64,000 bases of DNA. Origin: Oryzisolibacter sp. LB2S (lineage in GTDB: Bacteria; Pseudomonadota; Gammaproteobacteria; Burkholderiales; Burkholderiaceae_C). The notes under the pieces were generated by a model, which saw nothing but the letters and a program-made list of their open reading frames with translations, had not been told where the DNA came from and made no database searches. A program made the position numbers and the translations under genes. Positions 3,262 through 27,739 of the stretch are shown one piece after another (position 1 is the stretch's first letter; each line of letters opens with the position of its first letter). Location of the stretch: the NCBI RefSeq assembly GCF_040732315.1, contig NZ_CP160388.1, forward strand, positions 186,001 to 250,000, written 5' to 3'.

Positions 3262-4551
3262 ATGAACCCTGACAACGCTACCCTGGCCGAGCGCCTGCAG
3301 CAGCTGATCCGCCCCGGCGATACCCTGTGGTGGGGCCAGGCCCAGGCCGAGCCGCTGACGCTCACGCGCGCCGTCGTAGCGCACCGCCATGCGCTCGCGC
3401 GCGGCGGGCGGCTCGGCGTGTTCGTGGGCATGGCGGGCTCCGACACCCTGCAGCCCGCGCAGGCCGATGTGTTCGACTTCTTCGGCTATGCCGCGGGCGG
3501 CGCGCACCGGGCACTGGCGGCCGCGGGGGTGCTCGACATCGTGCCCAGCCACTACTCGCACCTGCCCGGGCTCATAGAGAGTGGCCGGCTGCCCGCCGAT
3601 GTGCTGCTGCTGCAGGTATCGCCCGCCGACGCCCAGGGCCGCCACAGCTGGGGCATGGCGCAGGAATACCTGCCCGCCGTGCTGCGCCGCGCGCGCGTGG
3701 TGATCGCCGAGGTCAACCCCGCCGTGCCCTGGACCCATAGCGGCCCCTGCCTCAGGGCGTCGGACTTCGCGCTGCTCGTCGATGCCGAACACCCGCCGCT
3801 CGAGCCCGGCCGCGGCGCGGGCGGCGCGGCCGAGCAGGCGATTGCGCACCACATTGCCGGCCTGATCGAGGACGGCGCCACGCTGCAGCTCGGCGTGGGC
3901 AATCTGCCCGAGGCCGTGCTGGCCGCCATGCATGGCCACCGCGACCTGGGCCTGCACAGCGGCGCCGTGGGCGACGGCATAGCGGCATTGGCCGAGGCCG
4001 GCGTGCTGACCAACGCGAAAAAGAGCATCGACCCTGGCGTGGGCGTGGCCGGCATCCTCATGGGCGGCGAGCGCCTGCGCCGCTGGGCGCACCGCAACCC
4101 GCAGATCGAGCTGCGCGCCACCAACTACACGCACCACCCCGAGGTGCTGGCCGCAAGCCACAAGCTCGCCGCGATCAACGCCGCCATCGAGGTCGACCTG
4201 ACGGGCCAGATCAACGCCGAGGTGGCCGCCGGCGGCTACGTGGGCGCCGTGGGCGGTGCCATGGACTTTCTGCGCGGCGCGGCCCGCAGCCGCGGCGGCC
4301 TGCCCATCGTCGCGCTGCCGGCCACGGCCAAGGGCGCAAGCCGCATCGTCGCGCAGCTGTCCGGCCCCGTGAGCACGCCGCGCGCGGACGCCGGCCTCAT
4401 CGTCACCGAGCATGGCGTGGCCGACCTGCGCGGCCAGACCCTCTCGCGCCGCGTGCGCCGGCTGATCGACATCGCCGCGCCCGAGCACCGCGAAGACCTC
4501 GAGCGCCAGGCGCATGCGCTGCTGCGCCGCTGTGGCGCGGTGTTGTCATGA
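3262..4551 (+). CDS. Acetyl-CoA hydrolase/transferase family protein
   Basis: 429 residues, family I CoA-transferase architecture of the acetyl-CoA hydrolase/4-hydroxybutyrate CoA-transferase type. Recognisable pieces are GVGNLPEAVLAAM for the CoA-binding region, EVDLTGQINAE, which holds the glutamate that normally forms the enzyme-CoA thioester, and TEHGVADLRGQ near the C-terminus. It would transfer CoA between acyl groups or hydrolyse an acyl-CoA, activating or releasing the pathway acid. It sits 12 bp after the crotonase gene. Donor and acceptor cannot be read from sequence. Confidence 0.82.
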   Translation: MNPDNATLAERLQQLIRPGDTLWWGQAQAEPLTLTRAVVAHRHALARGGRLGVFVGMAGSDTLQPAQADVFDFFGYAAGGAHRALAAAGVLDIVPSHYSHLPGLIESGRLPADVLLLQVSPADAQGRHSWGMAQEYLPAVLRRARVVIAEVNPAVPWTHSGPCLRASDFALLVDAEHPPLEPGRGAGGAAEQAIAHHIAGLIEDGATLQLGVGNLPEAVLAAMHGHRDLGLHSGAVGDGIAALAEAGVLTNAKKSIDPGVGVAGILMGGERLRRWAHRNPQIELRATNYTHHPEVLAASHKLAAINAAIEVDLTGQINAEVAAGGYVGAVGGAMDFLRGAARSRGGLPIVALPATAKGASRIVAQLSGPVSTPRADAGLIVTEHGVADLRGQTLSRRVRRLIDIAAPEHREDLERQAHALLRRCGAVLS

Positions 4552-4591
4552 AGGTGGCGTGTGCCGCAGATTCTGAGAATGAACACCAACC

Positions 4592-4737
4592 GTCATCCCC
4601 GCGCAGGCGGGGATCCAGGCAGGCGCCACAGACATACCGTGTGTCGCGAGCGGTCATCCCCGCGAAAGCGGGGATCCAGGTGCTACCCATGCCGTCGATT
4701 CGTCGCTGCCGTGGATCCCCGCCTGCGCGGGGATGAC
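4592..4737. repeat. Three palindromic units of the GTCATCCCCGCG..CGGGGATCC type
   Basis: Copies begin at 4592 (GTCATCCCCGCGCAGGCGGG) and near 4654 (GTCATCCCCGCGAAAGCGGG). A third copy in the opposite orientation ends at 4737 (CCCCGCCTGCGCGGGGATGAC). Each unit is a 7-8 bp stem with a 4-5 nt loop. They occupy much of the gap between the CoA-transferase and thiolase genes. Confidence 0.85.
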
Positions 4738-4774
4738 GGAGGGCGAGGCATCGGCAGAAGTCGTTTCAAACAAT

Positions 4775-7221: not shown

Positions 7222-8205
7222 ATGACCATCCACCCCACCCGCCGCCAAATCGTCGCAGGCGGCCTGCTGGCCGCGGCCGCCCAGCCCCTGGCTGCCCTGG
7301 CAGCCGACGCCTGGCCGAGCAAGCCCGTGCGCTTCATCGTGCCCTTTCCGCCCGGCGGCCCCGTGGACACCACGGCGCGCGCCGCAGGTCAGAAACTGGG
7401 CGAGATCTGGAACACGCCCACCGTCATCGACAACCGCGCCGGCGCCGGCGGCGTGGTCGGCGCCCAGGCCGCGGCGCGCGAGGCGCCCGACGGCTACACC
7501 CTGTTCATGGGCGCCATTCATCACTCGGTCAACCCCACGCTCATGGGCAATCTGCCCTACGACATCGAGAAGGATTTCGCACCCATCAGCTTCGCCGCCA
7601 TGTTCCCGGTGTTCATCGTGGTCCACCCCTCGGTGCCGGCCAATACCGTGCAGGAGCTGATCGCCCTGGCCAAGAAGCCCGGCAGCACCTTGAGCTACGC
7701 CTCATCGGGCAACGGCGGCGGCACGCACCTGGCGGGTGAGCTGTTCAACATGGAGGCCGGCACCAAGCTGCAGCATGTGCCCTACAAGGGCAGCGCGCCG
7801 GCCATGAACGATCTGCTCGGCGGCCAGGTGCAGATCATGTTCAGCGACGCGCCCACGGCGCTGCCGCAGATCAAGGCCGGCCGCGTCAAGGTGCTGGCCG
7901 TGGCCAGCAAGAAGCGCTCGGCCATGCTGCCCGATGTGCCCAGCGCCGCCGAGGCCGGCCTGCCCGGCTACGAGGCCTATTCCTGGACGGCGCTGTTCGC
8001 ACCGGCCAGGACGCCCCAGGCCGTGCTGGACAGGATCAACGCCGACTTCAACACGGCCTTCAAGGACCCGGCCGTGCGCCAGCGCCTGCTCGACGCCGGC
8101 GCCGAGGCCGCGCCCGGAACGCAGCAGGAGATGCGCGACTTCCTGCGCGCCGAGATTGCCAAATGGGCCAGGGTGATCAAGACGGCGGGGATTACGACGG
8201 GGTGA
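7222..8205 (+). CDS. Second Bug-family substrate-binding protein, probable Tat substrate
   Basis: 327 residues, paralogous to the gene 70 bp upstream. The signal begins MTIHPTRRQIVAGGLLAAAA: the TRRQIVAG twin-arginine region suggests Tat export, unlike the Sec-type leader of its neighbour. Mature features are VPFPPGGPVDTTARA, NLPYDIEKDFAPI and HVPYKGSAPAMNDLLGGQ. Tandem binding proteins of this kind usually differ in ligand. An AAGGAGACATCCC ribosome site supports the start. It is the last gene before the low-GC reverse transcriptase insert. Confidence 0.9.
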   Translation: MTIHPTRRQIVAGGLLAAAAQPLAALAADAWPSKPVRFIVPFPPGGPVDTTARAAGQKLGEIWNTPTVIDNRAGAGGVVGAQAAAREAPDGYTLFMGAIHHSVNPTLMGNLPYDIEKDFAPISFAAMFPVFIVVHPSVPANTVQELIALAKKPGSTLSYASSGNGGGTHLAGELFNMEAGTKLQHVPYKGSAPAMNDLLGGQVQIMFSDAPTALPQIKAGRVKVLAVASKKRSAMLPDVPSAAEAGLPGYEAYSWTALFAPARTPQAVLDRINADFNTAFKDPAVRQRLLDAGAEAAPGTQQEMRDFLRAEIAKWARVIKTAGITTG

Positions 8206-8429
8206 GAGGTGCTCCGATTGCTGATCGCTGTGCGGTTGGGTTGATTGCAGGGGCTGGAGCAGTAGCTCTGCCACCTGCTATTGACCCATTGCAGACGTTT
8301 AGCCCACGAGTGTGACAGGCAGCTCGGCAGCGATTGAAGTCCGTCAACCCCTTGGTATCAAAGTCGACATTCGGCCAGCAGGGTGCGGGCCAATGTCAGC
8401 TATGAGGACCCACCACTTCAAGCCATCGT

Positions 8430-9713
8430 TTACCGCTCCTTCGCGATGGCCGTCTGCAACCGCCCCCAGAGTGGGCGCAGTTGCCTTCGGATCTCCTTGG
8501 AGTTCATCATCTGTGCAGCCGTGTAGCCGTATCTCAGGAAGTTCCGTTTGCCCAGATGGGAGTACCTGGCAAGGATCTTTCGTTGGTACAGCTGCCGCTC
8601 GTAGGCGCCCTTGGCGTTCTTTGCCTTGTTTCTGCTGCGCATCGTCTGCTTAGCTAGGCTTACGCCGCGCTTCATGCGGTTCGAGAACTTGGCGAATGCG
8701 GCCGAACGAATGAGGATCCGCTTGCCATCAAAGAGGAACCCCAGGTACTGTAGGGGCTGATTGCAGGCTTGGGCTGCCCCCTTCTTGACGAAGGAGCAGG
8801 TGTCGGTTTTTGCTGGATTGATGGTCAACTTGAGCTTGCCTACTTCGGCGATGCAGAACTTCTTAGTTTTCTCTGCCAGGCTCGTGGGCATGATGAAGAG
8901 GATGTCATCGCAGTACCTCATGTACAGACCGCCTTGCCTCTTGGCGAAGCCGTGCGCGGCTGCGTCAAAGTCGAGCATGTAAATATTGGAGAGCAGGGCG
9001 CTGATCGGGGTTCCTTGCGGAATGCCGCATTTGTGCTGGTTGACCTTGACGAGCCCAGCTGCGCGAACGTCCTGCTTGAAGTCGGCAGGGCTGCAGAGGC
9101 GATGTCTTCCGCCGCCTCGGGGGTTGTGCACGGACACACCAAGTGCCGCGAAGCAGTCATTGCGGTCAACGAATGAGAACTTAGTCAGCGCCTTGAAGAC
9201 AGCGTAGTGGTCCCGCGGAAGGGACGAGGTGTTCAGCAAGCGCATCCATCGTTGCTTGAGCTGCGCGTGATCAATATTGTCAAAGAACTTCGTGACATCC
9301 AGCGCGACTGCCACGCAGTCTCCGCGCGCGCTGATCTCGTCGAAAGCGGCTTTCGCAAAGTCAATATTGTTCTTTCCCAGTGAGCGAAACGCGAGGACGC
9401 AGTCACCCAGTCCTTGCTGCCCGAGTACTGCCTCGTACAGCTTGCTCAGAGCTTCTGCATAAAAGCTGAAGATCAGCGAATCGCCATGCGCCGCATATGA
9501 AATCTCGCGGTCCTTAGGATGGCAATCAAGCTGTCCGGTGGTCTTGTCTTGCTTGATCTTGGTGGTATGAATCTGGAACCGGATCAGGGGCCAGAAAGAG
9601 TGCGCTGCCACAGCTTCCGGATTCGTGACCAAGGTCGTAGCCTTCTGAAAGTTCAACGGCTCGTCGAAGTGCAAATAACGGCGTTGCCGAAACCAGGTTG
9701 GCTTGTCCTGCAT
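8430..9713 (-). CDS. DRT2-type (UG2) defence-associated reverse transcriptase
   Basis: 427 residues. All core RT motifs are visible: motif A in ALDVTKFFDNIDH, motif B in GIPQGTPISALLSNIYMLDFD, the catalytic YCDD in LYMRYCDDILFI, then KLTINPAKT and LQYLGFLFDG. There is no maturase, HNH or protease domain. The opening RRYLHFDEPL, RPISYAAH-like and RYSHLGKRNF segments are what I recall of DRT2/UG2 enzymes, which reverse-transcribe an adjacent upstream RNA into concatemeric cDNA during phage infection. Here a structured 5' region with the expected layout lies directly upstream. No Shine-Dalgarno precedes the ATG. Base composition is visibly less GC-rich than the flanking genes, consistent with horizontal acquisition. 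It splits a catabolic island. Confidence 0.88.
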   Translation of the reverse strand: MQDKPTWFRQRRYLHFDEPLNFQKATTLVTNPEAVAAHSFWPLIRFQIHTTKIKQDKTTGQLDCHPKDREISYAAHGDSLIFSFYAEALSKLYEAVLGQQGLGDCVLAFRSLGKNNIDFAKAAFDEISARGDCVAVALDVTKFFDNIDHAQLKQRWMRLLNTSSLPRDHYAVFKALTKFSFVDRNDCFAALGVSVHNPRGGGRHRLCSPADFKQDVRAAGLVKVNQHKCGIPQGTPISALLSNIYMLDFDAAAHGFAKRQGGLYMRYCDDILFIMPTSLAEKTKKFCIAEVGKLKLTINPAKTDTCSFVKKGAAQACNQPLQYLGFLFDGKRILIRSAAFAKFSNRMKRGVSLAKQTMRSRNKAKNAKGAYERQLYQRKILARYSHLGKRNFLRYGYTAAQMMNSKEIRRQLRPLWGRLQTAIAKER

Positions 9714-9969
9714 GCAAAGTAGGGCTTGGTAGCAAAACCGGGGAGGGATAAGACCGTGGCAATCTTCACCACCCTCCCCGGCTTAACCGAGTGACAACTC
9801 ATCACCATCTTGCGACACAGGGCCGCGTAGCCACGCGTGTTAACAATGTCGTACAGTTACCTGGAGACAACCATGAGGCTGAGATTCCAAGTGCAGTGGT
9901 CAAGTTGGATCGGCATGGCCGGGTGGCTTGACATCCTGTGACATACCCTCAACACAATTTTGTTGAGGC
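9714..9969 (-). ncRNA. Predicted DRT2 template ncRNA upstream of the reverse transcriptase
   Basis: In transcript sense the region begins with the perfect hairpin CCTCAACA-AAATTG-TGTTGAGG (9968-9947). It then has ACA (9939-9937), a possible ATGTC/GACAT stem (9934-9930 with 9850-9846), an inner GTCAAG/CTTGAC stem (9932-9927 with 9904-9899) and a second ACA (9840-9838). It ends with a 10-bp stem CCGGGGAGGG/CCCTCCCCGG (9781-9738) 24 nt before the RT start. Known DRT2 RNAs are a few hundred nucleotides long, and two ACA motifs support template jumping. The exact 5' and 3' ends and the promoter are not resolved. Confidence 0.75.
9838..9936 (+). other. Predicted rolling-circle cDNA unit encoding a never-ending neo frame (33 codons)
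   Basis: This is the cDNA sense of the stretch between the two ACA motifs. When the 99-nt unit is repeated head to tail, TTGACA (9928-9933) is followed after exactly 17 nt by TACAGT (9852-9857), a promoter absent from the chromosome. GGAG (9863-9866) lies 6 nt before ATG (9873). From that ATG the frame reads MRLRFQVQWSSW... to ...LLTMSYSYLETT and re-enters ATG after 33 codons with no stop. In the chromosome the same frame ends at TGA (9939-9941) just past the unit. The unit length, a multiple of three, and the junction promoter are direct readings; production of a Neo protein is inferred from the DRT2 mechanism. Confidence 0.75.
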
Positions 9970-10011
9970 GATGCAAGGTTAACATGGTAGCGCGGGCTTG
10001 CTATTGCGAGA

Positions 10012-11235
10012 TCAGCCGACCTTCAAGTACTTGCAAGTGCTCTTCGACAGCGGCTTGAACGCCTGGTCGCCCGAAATGGTTGTCAGCACCTTGTAGTAGT
10101 CCCAGGGGTAGTTCGATTCGGCCGGCTTCTTCACTTGCACCAGGAACATGTCGTGCACCATGCGCCCGTCCTCGCGCAGCCGGCCGTTCTGCGCAAACAT
10201 GTCCGACAGTTTCATGCCCTGCAGCTGCTTGACCACGGCCTGCGCATCGTCGGTGCCCGCGGCCTGCACGGCCTTGAGGTACTGCGTGACGGCGGAGTAG
10301 TCGCCTGCCTGGATCATGGATGGCATCTTCTTCATCTTGCCGAAGAAGCGCCGCGCCCAGGCACGGGTTTCGTCGTTGCGGTCCCAGTAAAAGCCTGTGG
10401 TGAACACCATGCCCTGGCCGTGCTTGAGGCCCAGCGCGTGGATGTCGTTGATGAACATGAGGCTGGGCACGATGGTCTGGCTCTTGGTGATGCCGAACTC
10501 GTTGGCCGCCTTGATGGCGTTGACGGTGTCCGAGGTGGCGTTGGCCAGAGCGATCACCGGCGCCTTCGATCCCTGGGCCTGCAGCAGGAAGGATGAGAAG
10601 TCGCTGGCGTTGAGCGGGTGGAAGGTGCTGCCCACGATCCTGCCGCCGCCGGCCTGCACGAACTCGGTCAGGTTGGCCGCCATGGCCTTGCCGAAGGCGT
10701 AGTCCACGCCCAGGATGAACCAGTCCTTCTTGCCCTGGGCGAGGATGCCGTCGGCCGCGCCCTTGGCCAGCGCGTAGCTGTCGTAGGTGTAGTGGATGGC
10801 GGTGGGCGCGCAATGCTCGTTGGTCAGAATGTCGGAGGCGCCGCCGGTGTTCATCACCAGCTTGCTGCGCTCGCGCGCCAGGTTGTTCACGGCCACGGCG
10901 ACGGCGGTGTTGTTGAGGTTGATGATCAGGTCCACGCCGTCGCGGTCGAACCAGGTGCGTGCATGGGTGGCGCCCACGTCGGCCTTGTTCTGGTGGTCTG
11001 CCCAGACGACCTCTATCTTCTTGCCCAGCACGCTACCGCCGAAATCCTCCACCGCCATCCTGGCCGACTCCAGCGAGCCACGCCCTGCGGTGTCGGCGTA
11101 CAGGCCCGACATGTCGGACAGCACGCCTATGCGCACCACGTCGTCGGATATTTTTTGCGCCTGCGCGCCAAGGCCGGCCCCGAGGCCACAGGCCAGCAGG
11201 CACGAGAGAAAGAGCGGGTGATGGCGGTGCGGCAT
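10012..11235 (-). CDS. Branched-chain amino acid-type ABC transporter substrate-binding protein (LivK-like)
   Basis: 407 residues with a signal peptide (MPHRHHPLFLSCLLACGLGA, cleavage near AQA) followed by KISDDVVRIGVLSDMSGLYAD, the periplasmic-binding-protein type 1 fold of LivK/amide/aromatic-acid receptors. Later marks are GVDYAFGKAMAANL and MVFTTGFYWDRND. Close relatives often serve aromatic or aliphatic acid uptake, which fits the surrounding acyl-CoA genes. The ATG at 11235 follows GGAGACAAC. No permease or ATPase gene is adjacent. A hairpin 40 bp downstream belongs, I think, to the DRT2 RNA rather than to a terminator of this gene. Confidence 0.9.
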   Translation of the reverse strand: MPHRHHPLFLSCLLACGLGAGLGAQAQKISDDVVRIGVLSDMSGLYADTAGRGSLESARMAVEDFGGSVLGKKIEVVWADHQNKADVGATHARTWFDRDGVDLIINLNNTAVAVAVNNLARERSKLVMNTGGASDILTNEHCAPTAIHYTYDSYALAKGAADGILAQGKKDWFILGVDYAFGKAMAANLTEFVQAGGGRIVGSTFHPLNASDFSSFLLQAQGSKAPVIALANATSDTVNAIKAANEFGITKSQTIVPSLMFINDIHALGLKHGQGMVFTTGFYWDRNDETRAWARRFFGKMKKMPSMIQAGDYSAVTQYLKAVQAAGTDDAQAVVKQLQGMKLSDMFAQNGRLREDGRMVHDMFLVQVKKPAESNYPWDYYKVLTTISGDQAFKPLSKSTCKYLKVG

Positions 11236-14303: not shown

Positions 14304-14726
14304 GTGAGCGCGTCGCAACAGCCCCAGGAGCGCAGCGCCTTTCTGCGCATGATGGGCGCGGCCCAGGTGCCGGCGCCCGAAGGCAAGGTGTGGGTGCGCC
14401 TGCCCGAGCTGCGCCCCGAGCTGCTCAACCAGCTGCCCGCCGCGCATGGTGGCGTGATCATGGCGCTGCTCGATTCCGTCATGTCGCGCGCCTGTGCGCT
14501 GCAGCCGGGCGCGCCCTCGCAGACCGCGGTGACGGTGGAGATGTCCAGCCGCTTTCACCGCCCCGCGCGCGGCGCGCTGCTGGCCGAGGGCTGGGTGGTG
14601 CATGGCAGCCGCAGCCTGTGCAGCTGCGCCGCCGAGCTGCGCGACGCGCAGGGCCAGGTGGTGGCCACGGCCAGCGGCACGTTCAAATACTGGCTCGCGC
14701 CCACGACCTGGGACTCGCGCGAGTGA
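14304..14726 (+). CDS. PaaI-family hotdog thioesterase
   Basis: 140 residues, one hotdog domain. The HGGVIMALLDSVMSRAC helix, carrying the family HGG and the active-site aspartate, is intact, followed by TVEMSSRFHRPARG and a C-terminal TFKYW. It hydrolyses acyl- or phenylacyl-CoA thioesters, probably to recycle CoA in the island. The start is GTG at 14304 behind GGAGGG. A 21-codon frame opened by an ATGA overlap at 14242 runs through the leader and may couple translation to the dehydrogenase gene. Confidence 0.85.
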   Translation: MSASQQPQERSAFLRMMGAAQVPAPEGKVWVRLPELRPELLNQLPAAHGGVIMALLDSVMSRACALQPGAPSQTAVTVEMSSRFHRPARGALLAEGWVVHGSRSLCSCAAELRDAQGQVVATASGTFKYWLAPTTWDSRE

Positions 14727-14775
14727 GGAGCATGCGCGACGCAAGCGACGCCACCGGTTGGACAGCCCCCGCCCC

Positions 14776-14860
14776 GTCATCCCCGCGCATGCGGGGATCC
14801 AGGTGCCACCCAGGCCGTGGCTTCGTCACCGCGTTGGATCCCCGCATGCGCGGGGATGAC
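14776..14860. repeat. Inverted pair of GTCATCCCCGCG..CGGGGATCC palindromes
   Basis: GTCATCCCCGCGCATGCGGG at 14776 and its mirrored copy ending CGCGGGGATGAC at 14860, separated by about 35 bp. Same family as 4592-4737. It lies between the thioesterase and the convergent LysR gene. Confidence 0.85.
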
Positions 14861-27472: not shown

Positions 27473-27591
27473 GTCGGGTTCCTCCGGAGCCTTGAGGTCC
27501 AGGCGAAATTATGGTCACGGGACGGCGCTGCGTACAGGGTCCGCCCCTGACGGCGCCGTGCGATTGCAGCCGCGCGTAAAATCGCGCCCTT

Positions 27592-27702
27592 CCCGAGGAG
27601 CGCTGCAGCGCCTGCCGCACAGGCCCCGAGCCTTGTGCGGCCGCGTCAGGCTCGGGCCGGTGGCGGCTTGACCCCACACGGGTGCAGCAACGGCGCTCAC
27701 CT
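27592..27702 (+). promoter_or_regulatory. SAH (S-adenosylhomocysteine) riboswitch
   Basis: CCCGAGGAGCGCTGCAGCGC at the 5' side, CAGGCTCGGG in the middle, and CAACGGCGCTCACCTG at the 3' end match the conserved core of the SAH riboswitch. The expected GAGC/GCTC pairings are GAGGAGCGC with GGCGCTCAC and CCCGAGCCTTG/CAGGCTCGGG. It ends 37 nt before the metH start. SAH binding normally turns expression on, so that homocysteine derived from SAH is remethylated. A TAAAAT hexamer at 27577 may be the -10 box. Confidence 0.92.
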
Positions 27703-27739
27703 GTCCTTTTCAGCCTTGGGTCTTTCACAGGTGAGCCAG

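Follow-up and report, generated by a model that had tools for sequence, protein, structure and literature searches.

A DRT2-family reverse transcriptase locus in Oryzisolibacter with a predicted never-ending open reading frame on a 99-nt repeat unit

What does the short stretch of DNA upstream of a reverse transcriptase gene in Oryzisolibacter sp. LB2S encode, and can it be read as a gene at all? The window examined here is a stretch of 64,000 nucleotides of contig NZ_CP160388.1 (positions 186,001 to 250,000 of the forward strand), from a genome of 3.84 Mb in a single contig. A sequence-only reading of the window had proposed that a 99-nt unit in this stretch becomes a never-ending open reading frame (neo) when it is copied head to tail by reverse transcription, and had presented this as a new prediction that matches the DRT2 mechanism. 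The novelty was overstated, as the texts of PMC11100668 and PMC12039810 already describe rolling-circle reverse transcription to a never-ending open reading frame (Neo) for DRT2, and with it the breadth of the mechanism within DRT2. The match to the mechanism is supported, because the reverse transcriptase (RT) is a Drt2 and the unit follows the rule published in these texts. The locus is filed as a member of DRT2 because each defining feature that was looked for in the sequence is present. We are confident in the reading that this is a DRT2-family locus with a likely anti-phage role, in which the template of a non-coding RNA (ncRNA) is predicted to be copied round into tandem DNA that carries a promoter at each junction and a never-ending neo of 33-codon repeats.

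The enzyme itself is readily assigned. It matches the Drt2 profiles of PADLOC (621.7 bits) and NCBIfam (571.7 bits against a cut-off of 390), and it matches solved chains named Drt2 with 475 bits over residues 4-425. We take these chains to be those of the Klebsiella enzyme. Other DRT profiles of PADLOC score far lower on the same protein (Drt3a 71.7 bits, Drt9 52.7 bits), and the only Pfam match is RVT_1. As in DRT2, the RT is of the Drt2 family without an added domain and its catalytic YCDD is intact. Proteins up to 85% identical to it exist, a comparison made at the protein level only. The Drt2 cut-off is exceeded in 3 of 148 genomes of relatives. At wider ranks the counts are 3 of 398 for the family, 2 of 369 for the class and 1 of 398 for the phylum; each count takes in the window's own genome, and the sets overlap. 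A plasmid search with P0098 as a second query returned no RT closer than those of the first plasmid search.

DRT2 systems also have a structured ncRNA directly upstream of the RT on the same strand, and such an RNA is found here (Table 1), with a fold z-score of -4.0. Two guides served to place its 5' end: the extended -10, and the published account of the Klebsiella RNA, where 28 nt stand before the template. The Rfam family RT-12 (RF03016) covers the 3' domain of the ncRNA, and the match ends 1 base past the conserved GCTA. RT-12 is listed in Rfam only as an sRNA and is without the template and the 5' handle, and it lies upstream of a Drt2 RT in 18 of the loci studied here. By analogy, the GCTA of the window would equal G277-A280, the bases with which the Klebsiella ncRNA ends on its 3' side in the numbering used in the text of PMC12039810. 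The hairpin of the 5' handle was found in all 12 loci that were folded (12 of the 18 RT-12 loci given). Among the papers that the literature searches brought up, none was found to name RT-12 together with DRT2, which makes no claim on print as a whole. The DNA of the ncRNA was searched for in E. coli genomes and plasmids and was not found there. Besides RT-12, the sole Rfam RNA match in the window is a SAH riboswitch (RF01057) at 27589-27705 on the plus strand (43.2 bits). In another locus (L115) a second Rfam family, RT-13, matches at 2766-2835 on the minus strand, upstream of a Drt2-like RT that is more distant (34% identical); a further branch of DRT2 may use RT-13 as its ncRNA.

Table 1. 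Features of the DRT2-family locus, in window coordinates
Feature	Position	Strand	Remarks
Variable slot holding the DRT2 block	8210..10011	.	
DRT2 reverse transcriptase	8430..9713	-	427 aa, uninterrupted, YCDD at residue 267
ncRNA (predicted limits)	9730..9968	-	5' end probably at about 9967-9969
ncRNA layout	9730..9968	-	about 28-nt 5' handle, 99-nt template, 111-nt 3' domain ending in GCTA
Rfam RT-12 (RF03016) match	9729..9842	-	73 bits, full model, begins 2 nt before ACA-2
ACA-2, triplet where the cDNA end (TGT) would re-anneal	9838..9840	-	
99-nt cDNA-sense repeat unit (neo proto-gene)	9841..9939	+	
Predicted DNA primer ACAAT	9843..9847	+	probable positional equivalent of Klebsiella GATAT, from alignment and the numbering in the text of PMC12039810
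-10 TACAGT, junction promoter	9852..9857	+	17 nt after the -35 only across the junction
GGAG, predicted neo ribosome binding site	9863..9866	+	
neo codons visible in the genome	9873..9938	+	ATG to CTG, 22 codons; genomic TGA 9939-9941 next
-35 TTGACA, junction promoter	9928..9933	+	
ACA-1, first template triplet (template 5' end)	9937..9939	-	
5' handle hairpin	9947..9968	-	hairpin kept in relatives, sequence differs
Likely extended -10 (TGTTAACCT) of the ncRNA/RT promoter	9976..9984	-	predicted by sequence comparison

How would such an RNA give rise to a gene? The unit rule in the text of PMC12039810 counts ACA-1 in and ends just ahead of ACA-2; it gives 9841-9939, which is the same circle as the 9838-9936 of the sequence-only reading. 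The identical TGT triplets placed by that reading at 9838-9840 and 9937-9939, around a unit of 99 nt, are exact to the base. The predicted head-to-tail junction of unit copies is TTGACATCCTGT/TAACAATG. Across this junction, and only there, TTGACA, exactly 17 nt and TACAGT form a promoter with 10 of 12 bases of the consensus, just as had been claimed. A scan of the linear region 8200-10200 gave no sigma-70-like site at the scan threshold. In the window unit 6 nt separate GGAG from the ATG at 9873, and one of the three frames of the circular unit is stop-free over 33 codons (TMSYSYLETTMRLRFQVQWSSWIGMAGWLDILL). The linear frame in the genome is MRLRFQVQWSSWIGMAGWLDIL, which ends at the genomic TGA; the remaining 11 codons would lie beyond a junction. 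These details of ribosome site, start codon, frame and stop had also been given correctly. The opposite strand of the unit was said to be stop-free in one frame and to have no ATG or junction promoter, and this agrees with what was found: its best promoter match, at 8 of 12, lies clear of the junction, and those that cross it reach 7. The locus thus has the template bracketed by ACA-1 and ACA-2 that is typical of DRT2, a unit whose length is a multiple of three (3n) with one stop-free frame across the junction, and a -35/-10 pair that is present in the sequence only at the junction and is followed by a ribosome binding site and a start codon.

Could these features have come together by chance? 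The window unit was shuffled 20,000 times with dinucleotides preserved, and a junction promoter was counted at 10 of 12 or better with a spacing of 16-18. An open frame appeared in 11,648 shuffles (58%), and a stop-free frame alone is therefore weak evidence. A junction promoter appeared in 57 shuffles, in 30 of them together with an open frame, and all features including a Shine-Dalgarno (SD) site and an in-frame ATG in one. Elsewhere in the window, 600 pairs of TGT triplets 75-135 nt apart on both strands gave 404 units that are 3n and 398 that are open, and none with a junction promoter. The sequence-only reading held that the coincidence of features is hard to explain by chance; for the combination this stands (1 in 20,000), whereas the rarity of the stop-free frame had been overstated. 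The absence of stops and the 3n length are weak evidence alone, and their combination with the junction promoter is not chance. The case for neo is carried by the junction promoter and by conservation.

Conservation was examined in the window and 40 further loci, in two sets of 20, with an RT-12 gathering score of 44.2. This score is reached in the window, in 10 of the 20 loci of one set and in 7 of the 20 of the other, which gives 18 loci. A fixed rule was applied to them: ACA-2 is position 3-5 of the RT-12 model, and the start of the first triplet lies 7 nt ahead of GTCAA, which is the -35 in reverse. One locus (L172) has GTCCA for GTCAA, and the triplet taken was the ACA that repeats ACA-2 at the same place. 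In 18 of 18 loci the unit is 3n, has exactly one stop-free frame, a junction promoter with a 17-nt spacer and complementary jump triplets. The units are 99 nt long in seven loci, 111 in two, 117 in five, 120 in two, and 129 and 132 in one each. The -35 is TTGACA in 17 loci and TGGACA in L172, and the -10 has the form TA(T/C)(A/G)(A/G)T throughout. The RT of the window is 46-78% identical to those of the other 17 loci. For nine clade representatives, with the clades treated as independent, the probability of a 3n length multiplied by that of openness in shuffles is about 10^-9.6. The same unit rule has been reported for 42 close Klebsiella homologues in the text of PMC12039810, and the conservation in the 18 loci extends this published rule. 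Left out of the 18 were the loci without RT-12 (L008-L013, L019, L115, L118 and L119 in the set with 10 such loci; L014-L018, L020, L022, L027, L040, L112, L113 and L174 in the set with 7), L083, with an upstream sequence the same as that of L002, the viral L173, with an RT cut at a contig end, and L249, below the RT-12 score.

The sequence-only reading had proposed that homologues be searched for units that carry stops. None was found among the 18 loci over the RT-12 score, and the one failure is L249, from an order-level relative (G1404). Its RT is 47% identical to that of the window, and its RT-12 match is 36.5 bits against the cut-off of 44.2. At about 1370-1500, L249 has a perfect TTGACA-17-TATAAT junction and a good ribosome site, but the unit is 133 nt long, so that the frame shifts at the junction and stops after 69 codons. 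One other triplet pairing was found in it, GCA/GCA at 135 nt, and this has no open frame. An error of assembly, a dead copy or a variant whose product is finite may lie behind L249.

Does the frame matter, or only the DNA? The concatemeric cDNA of DRT2, or its RNA, could act without translation, and the open frame would then be a by-product of composition and shared ancestry. The frequency of open frames among the shuffled units and the failure of L249 would fit such a role, and so would the weak conservation of Neo at the amino-acid level. Among five loci of the 99-nt clade, amino-acid identity lies weakly above a null with the same changes (P 0.03 to 0.29 in seven of ten pairs). In 11 of the 18 units the neo frame exceeds the open frames of shuffles in hydrophobicity at P < 0.05, and for the window's own Neo the difference is not significant (P 0.14). 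The text of PMC12039810 notes a hydrophobic bias for Klebsiella as well, and puts most of the conserved residues down to promoter and ACA bases. However, a 3n length and an open frame hold in every one of the 18 loci above the RT-12 score, at six unit lengths, and this includes L004, L117, L167 and L170, where the chance of openness is only 12-20%. In addition, stop codons abolish defence in Klebsiella and synonymous changes do not, according to the text of PMC12039810. An untranslated role is thus very improbable, and the preferred reading is that of a translated neo.

Some sequences fall outside this comparison. A scan with a 15-base template motif gave 47 stretches of viral contigs, which were dropped because none encodes the RT. 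A permissive search of the window and 24 loci, which accepted any repeated triplet with a junction promoter, allowed too many choices to count as evidence. It gave open 3n candidate units in distant DRT2 loci without RT-12, which serve as leads only; examples are L009 (ACC/ACC, 126 nt) and L015 and L018 (129 nt each), where the repeated triplets lie in a shared ATTGCA or ATTAC. The locus L001 is a 4.3-kb contig filed under a Planctomycetales MAG with a 99-nt unit 92.9% identical to that of the window; the contig is possibly misbinned or recently moved.

Which property of the triplets is kept? They are ACA/ACA in 14 of the 18 loci, GCA/GCA in one (L006), ACA/GCA in two (L004 and L171) and ACA/ATA in one (L117). 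In the latter four loci pairing between the cDNA end and the second triplet is retained, in three of the four with a single G-T wobble. Because the triplets vary and remain complementary in these loci, it is proposed that complementarity is the kept feature, and the sequences suggest that ACA itself is not. The pairing fits the model of melting and re-annealing in the text of PMC11100668, according to which defence was abolished when the motifs lost their homology.

The window clade differs from the other loci in the length of its leader. The start codon chosen was that preceded at 5-9 nt by a ribosome site. The distance from the end of the -10 to this codon is 15 nt in the window, L247, L001, L081, L002 and L003, 18 nt in L004, and 24 to 27 nt in the ten longer-unit loci measured (L172 excluded), so that the leader of the window clade is about 9 nt shorter than elsewhere. 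The five relatives with the 15-nt distance share the unit length, triplets, promoter spacing, leader and start position of the window. Their RTs are 61-78% identical to that of the window, and 21 to 30 of the 33 Neo residues are identical in the four compared. The RT of L247 is identical to P0018, a protein named Chitinimonas sp. BJYL2. Transcription usually starts about 7 nt after the -10. At the window locus it would start at about 9864, on the GGAG, as the sequence-only reading had predicted, and this arrangement is common to the six loci of the clade. Only 8-10 nt would lead up to the first start codon of each RNA, with a terminal ribosome site at best, and the next repeat would have a complete one. 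With the ribosome site placed on the predicted start of transcription, SD-led translation would set in a repeat later. It is conceivable, although we hold it tentatively, that this neo is double-locked: one junction would make the promoter, a usable ribosome site would come only in the next repeat, and Neo would be made only from cDNA of at least three units; more widely, the jump would be set by triplet complementarity and not by ACA itself. If this were true, the need for at least three units would come near the two to three repeats that make Klebsiella Neo toxic. The text of PMC11100668 gives toxicity from three repeats, and that of PMC12039810 growth arrest from two.

The DRT2 genes lie in a slot of changing content that is flanked by two conserved genes. 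Homology to congeners ends at 8203-8209 in six of six stretches and resumes at 10012-10031 in four of six, the stretches compared being window 8210-10011 and L274-L279. Six other genomes of the genus were searched. In two of them (G004 and G006) the slot holds, by eye, an aldehyde dehydrogenase-like gene, in G002 other genes including the aldehyde dehydrogenase-like one (by eye), and in G005 (L276) a type I restriction-modification set along with further genes, one of them PDC-S02; in G001 and G003 the second flanking gene lies outside the stretch compared. The GC content of the DRT2 stretch (8430-10011) is 55.9% versus 68.6% for the window, and the stretch is read as a foreign block in a variable slot. 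Two repeat-like stretches of the window (4548-4740 and 14700-14860) have translations with SPRRRGS and VIPAKAGIQ or VIPAHAGIQ, and presumably resemble the intergenic repeats of such genomes.

Is the locus still active in its present host? The foreign composition, the slot of changing content and the weaker -10 would fit a decayed, inactive DRT2 locus. Against this, the RT is uninterrupted and keeps its YCDD, the ncRNA matches the full RT-12 model and all features of the unit are intact, and we regard an inactive locus as highly unlikely. On the other side, what counts against the preferred reading is the weakness of TACAGT relative to the TATAAT reported for Klebsiella, the very short leader, the failure of L249, the weak conservation of Neo at the amino-acid level and the lack of significant hydrophobicity in the window's own Neo.

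What the DNA itself shows is a Drt2 enzyme with an RT-12 scaffold, the two triplets, a 3n unit free of stops, a promoter at the junction, a ribosome site with its start codon, and the conservation of these features among relatives. The synthesis of cDNA, its transcription and translation and the defence itself would follow at this locus by analogy with the Klebsiella system. The RT would bind the ncRNA, with priming from the ncRNA 3' end. On reaching ACA-1 it would return to ACA-2 by template jumping, which would yield concatemeric cDNA. Second-strand synthesis would take place on infection, and the promoter across each junction would allow the repeat DNA to be transcribed. Neo would then be translated from endless 33-codon repeats and lead to growth arrest and abortive infection.

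The neo anatomy of DRT2 has been recovered here from raw sequence alone, in a branch with RT identities of 46-78% to the other 17 RT-12 loci. The window and its 17 relatives form a small test set that varies in unit length, leader length and jump triplets. Does triplet complementarity set the jump, and does leader length set the minimum number of Neo repeats? Both questions become testable with this set.

The closest known system is KpnDRT2 of Klebsiella pneumoniae (PMC11100668; PMC12039810; PDB 9c0i and others). According to these texts it likewise has a single RT without an extra domain and an upstream ncRNA, an ACA-bracketed template, a 3n stop-free unit and a junction promoter with a 17-nt spacer, followed by a ribosome binding site and start codon. 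The two differ in several details. The unit is 99 nt in the window and 120 in KpnDRT2, and the text of PMC12039810 gives 117 for most units and 111 or 129 for several. The window unit is shorter than the lengths found named in the texts of both papers; no unit of 99 nt was found there, which makes no claim on print as a whole. The -10 is TACAGT in the window versus the published TATAAT of KpnDRT2, and the ribosome binding site follows it after 5 nt versus 13 nt in the text of PMC12039810. DRT9, DRT3 and DRT10, as far as the published accounts go, likewise combine an RT with an ncRNA and give repetitive DNA products, but their products are homopolymer, dinucleotide or tandem-repeat DNA.
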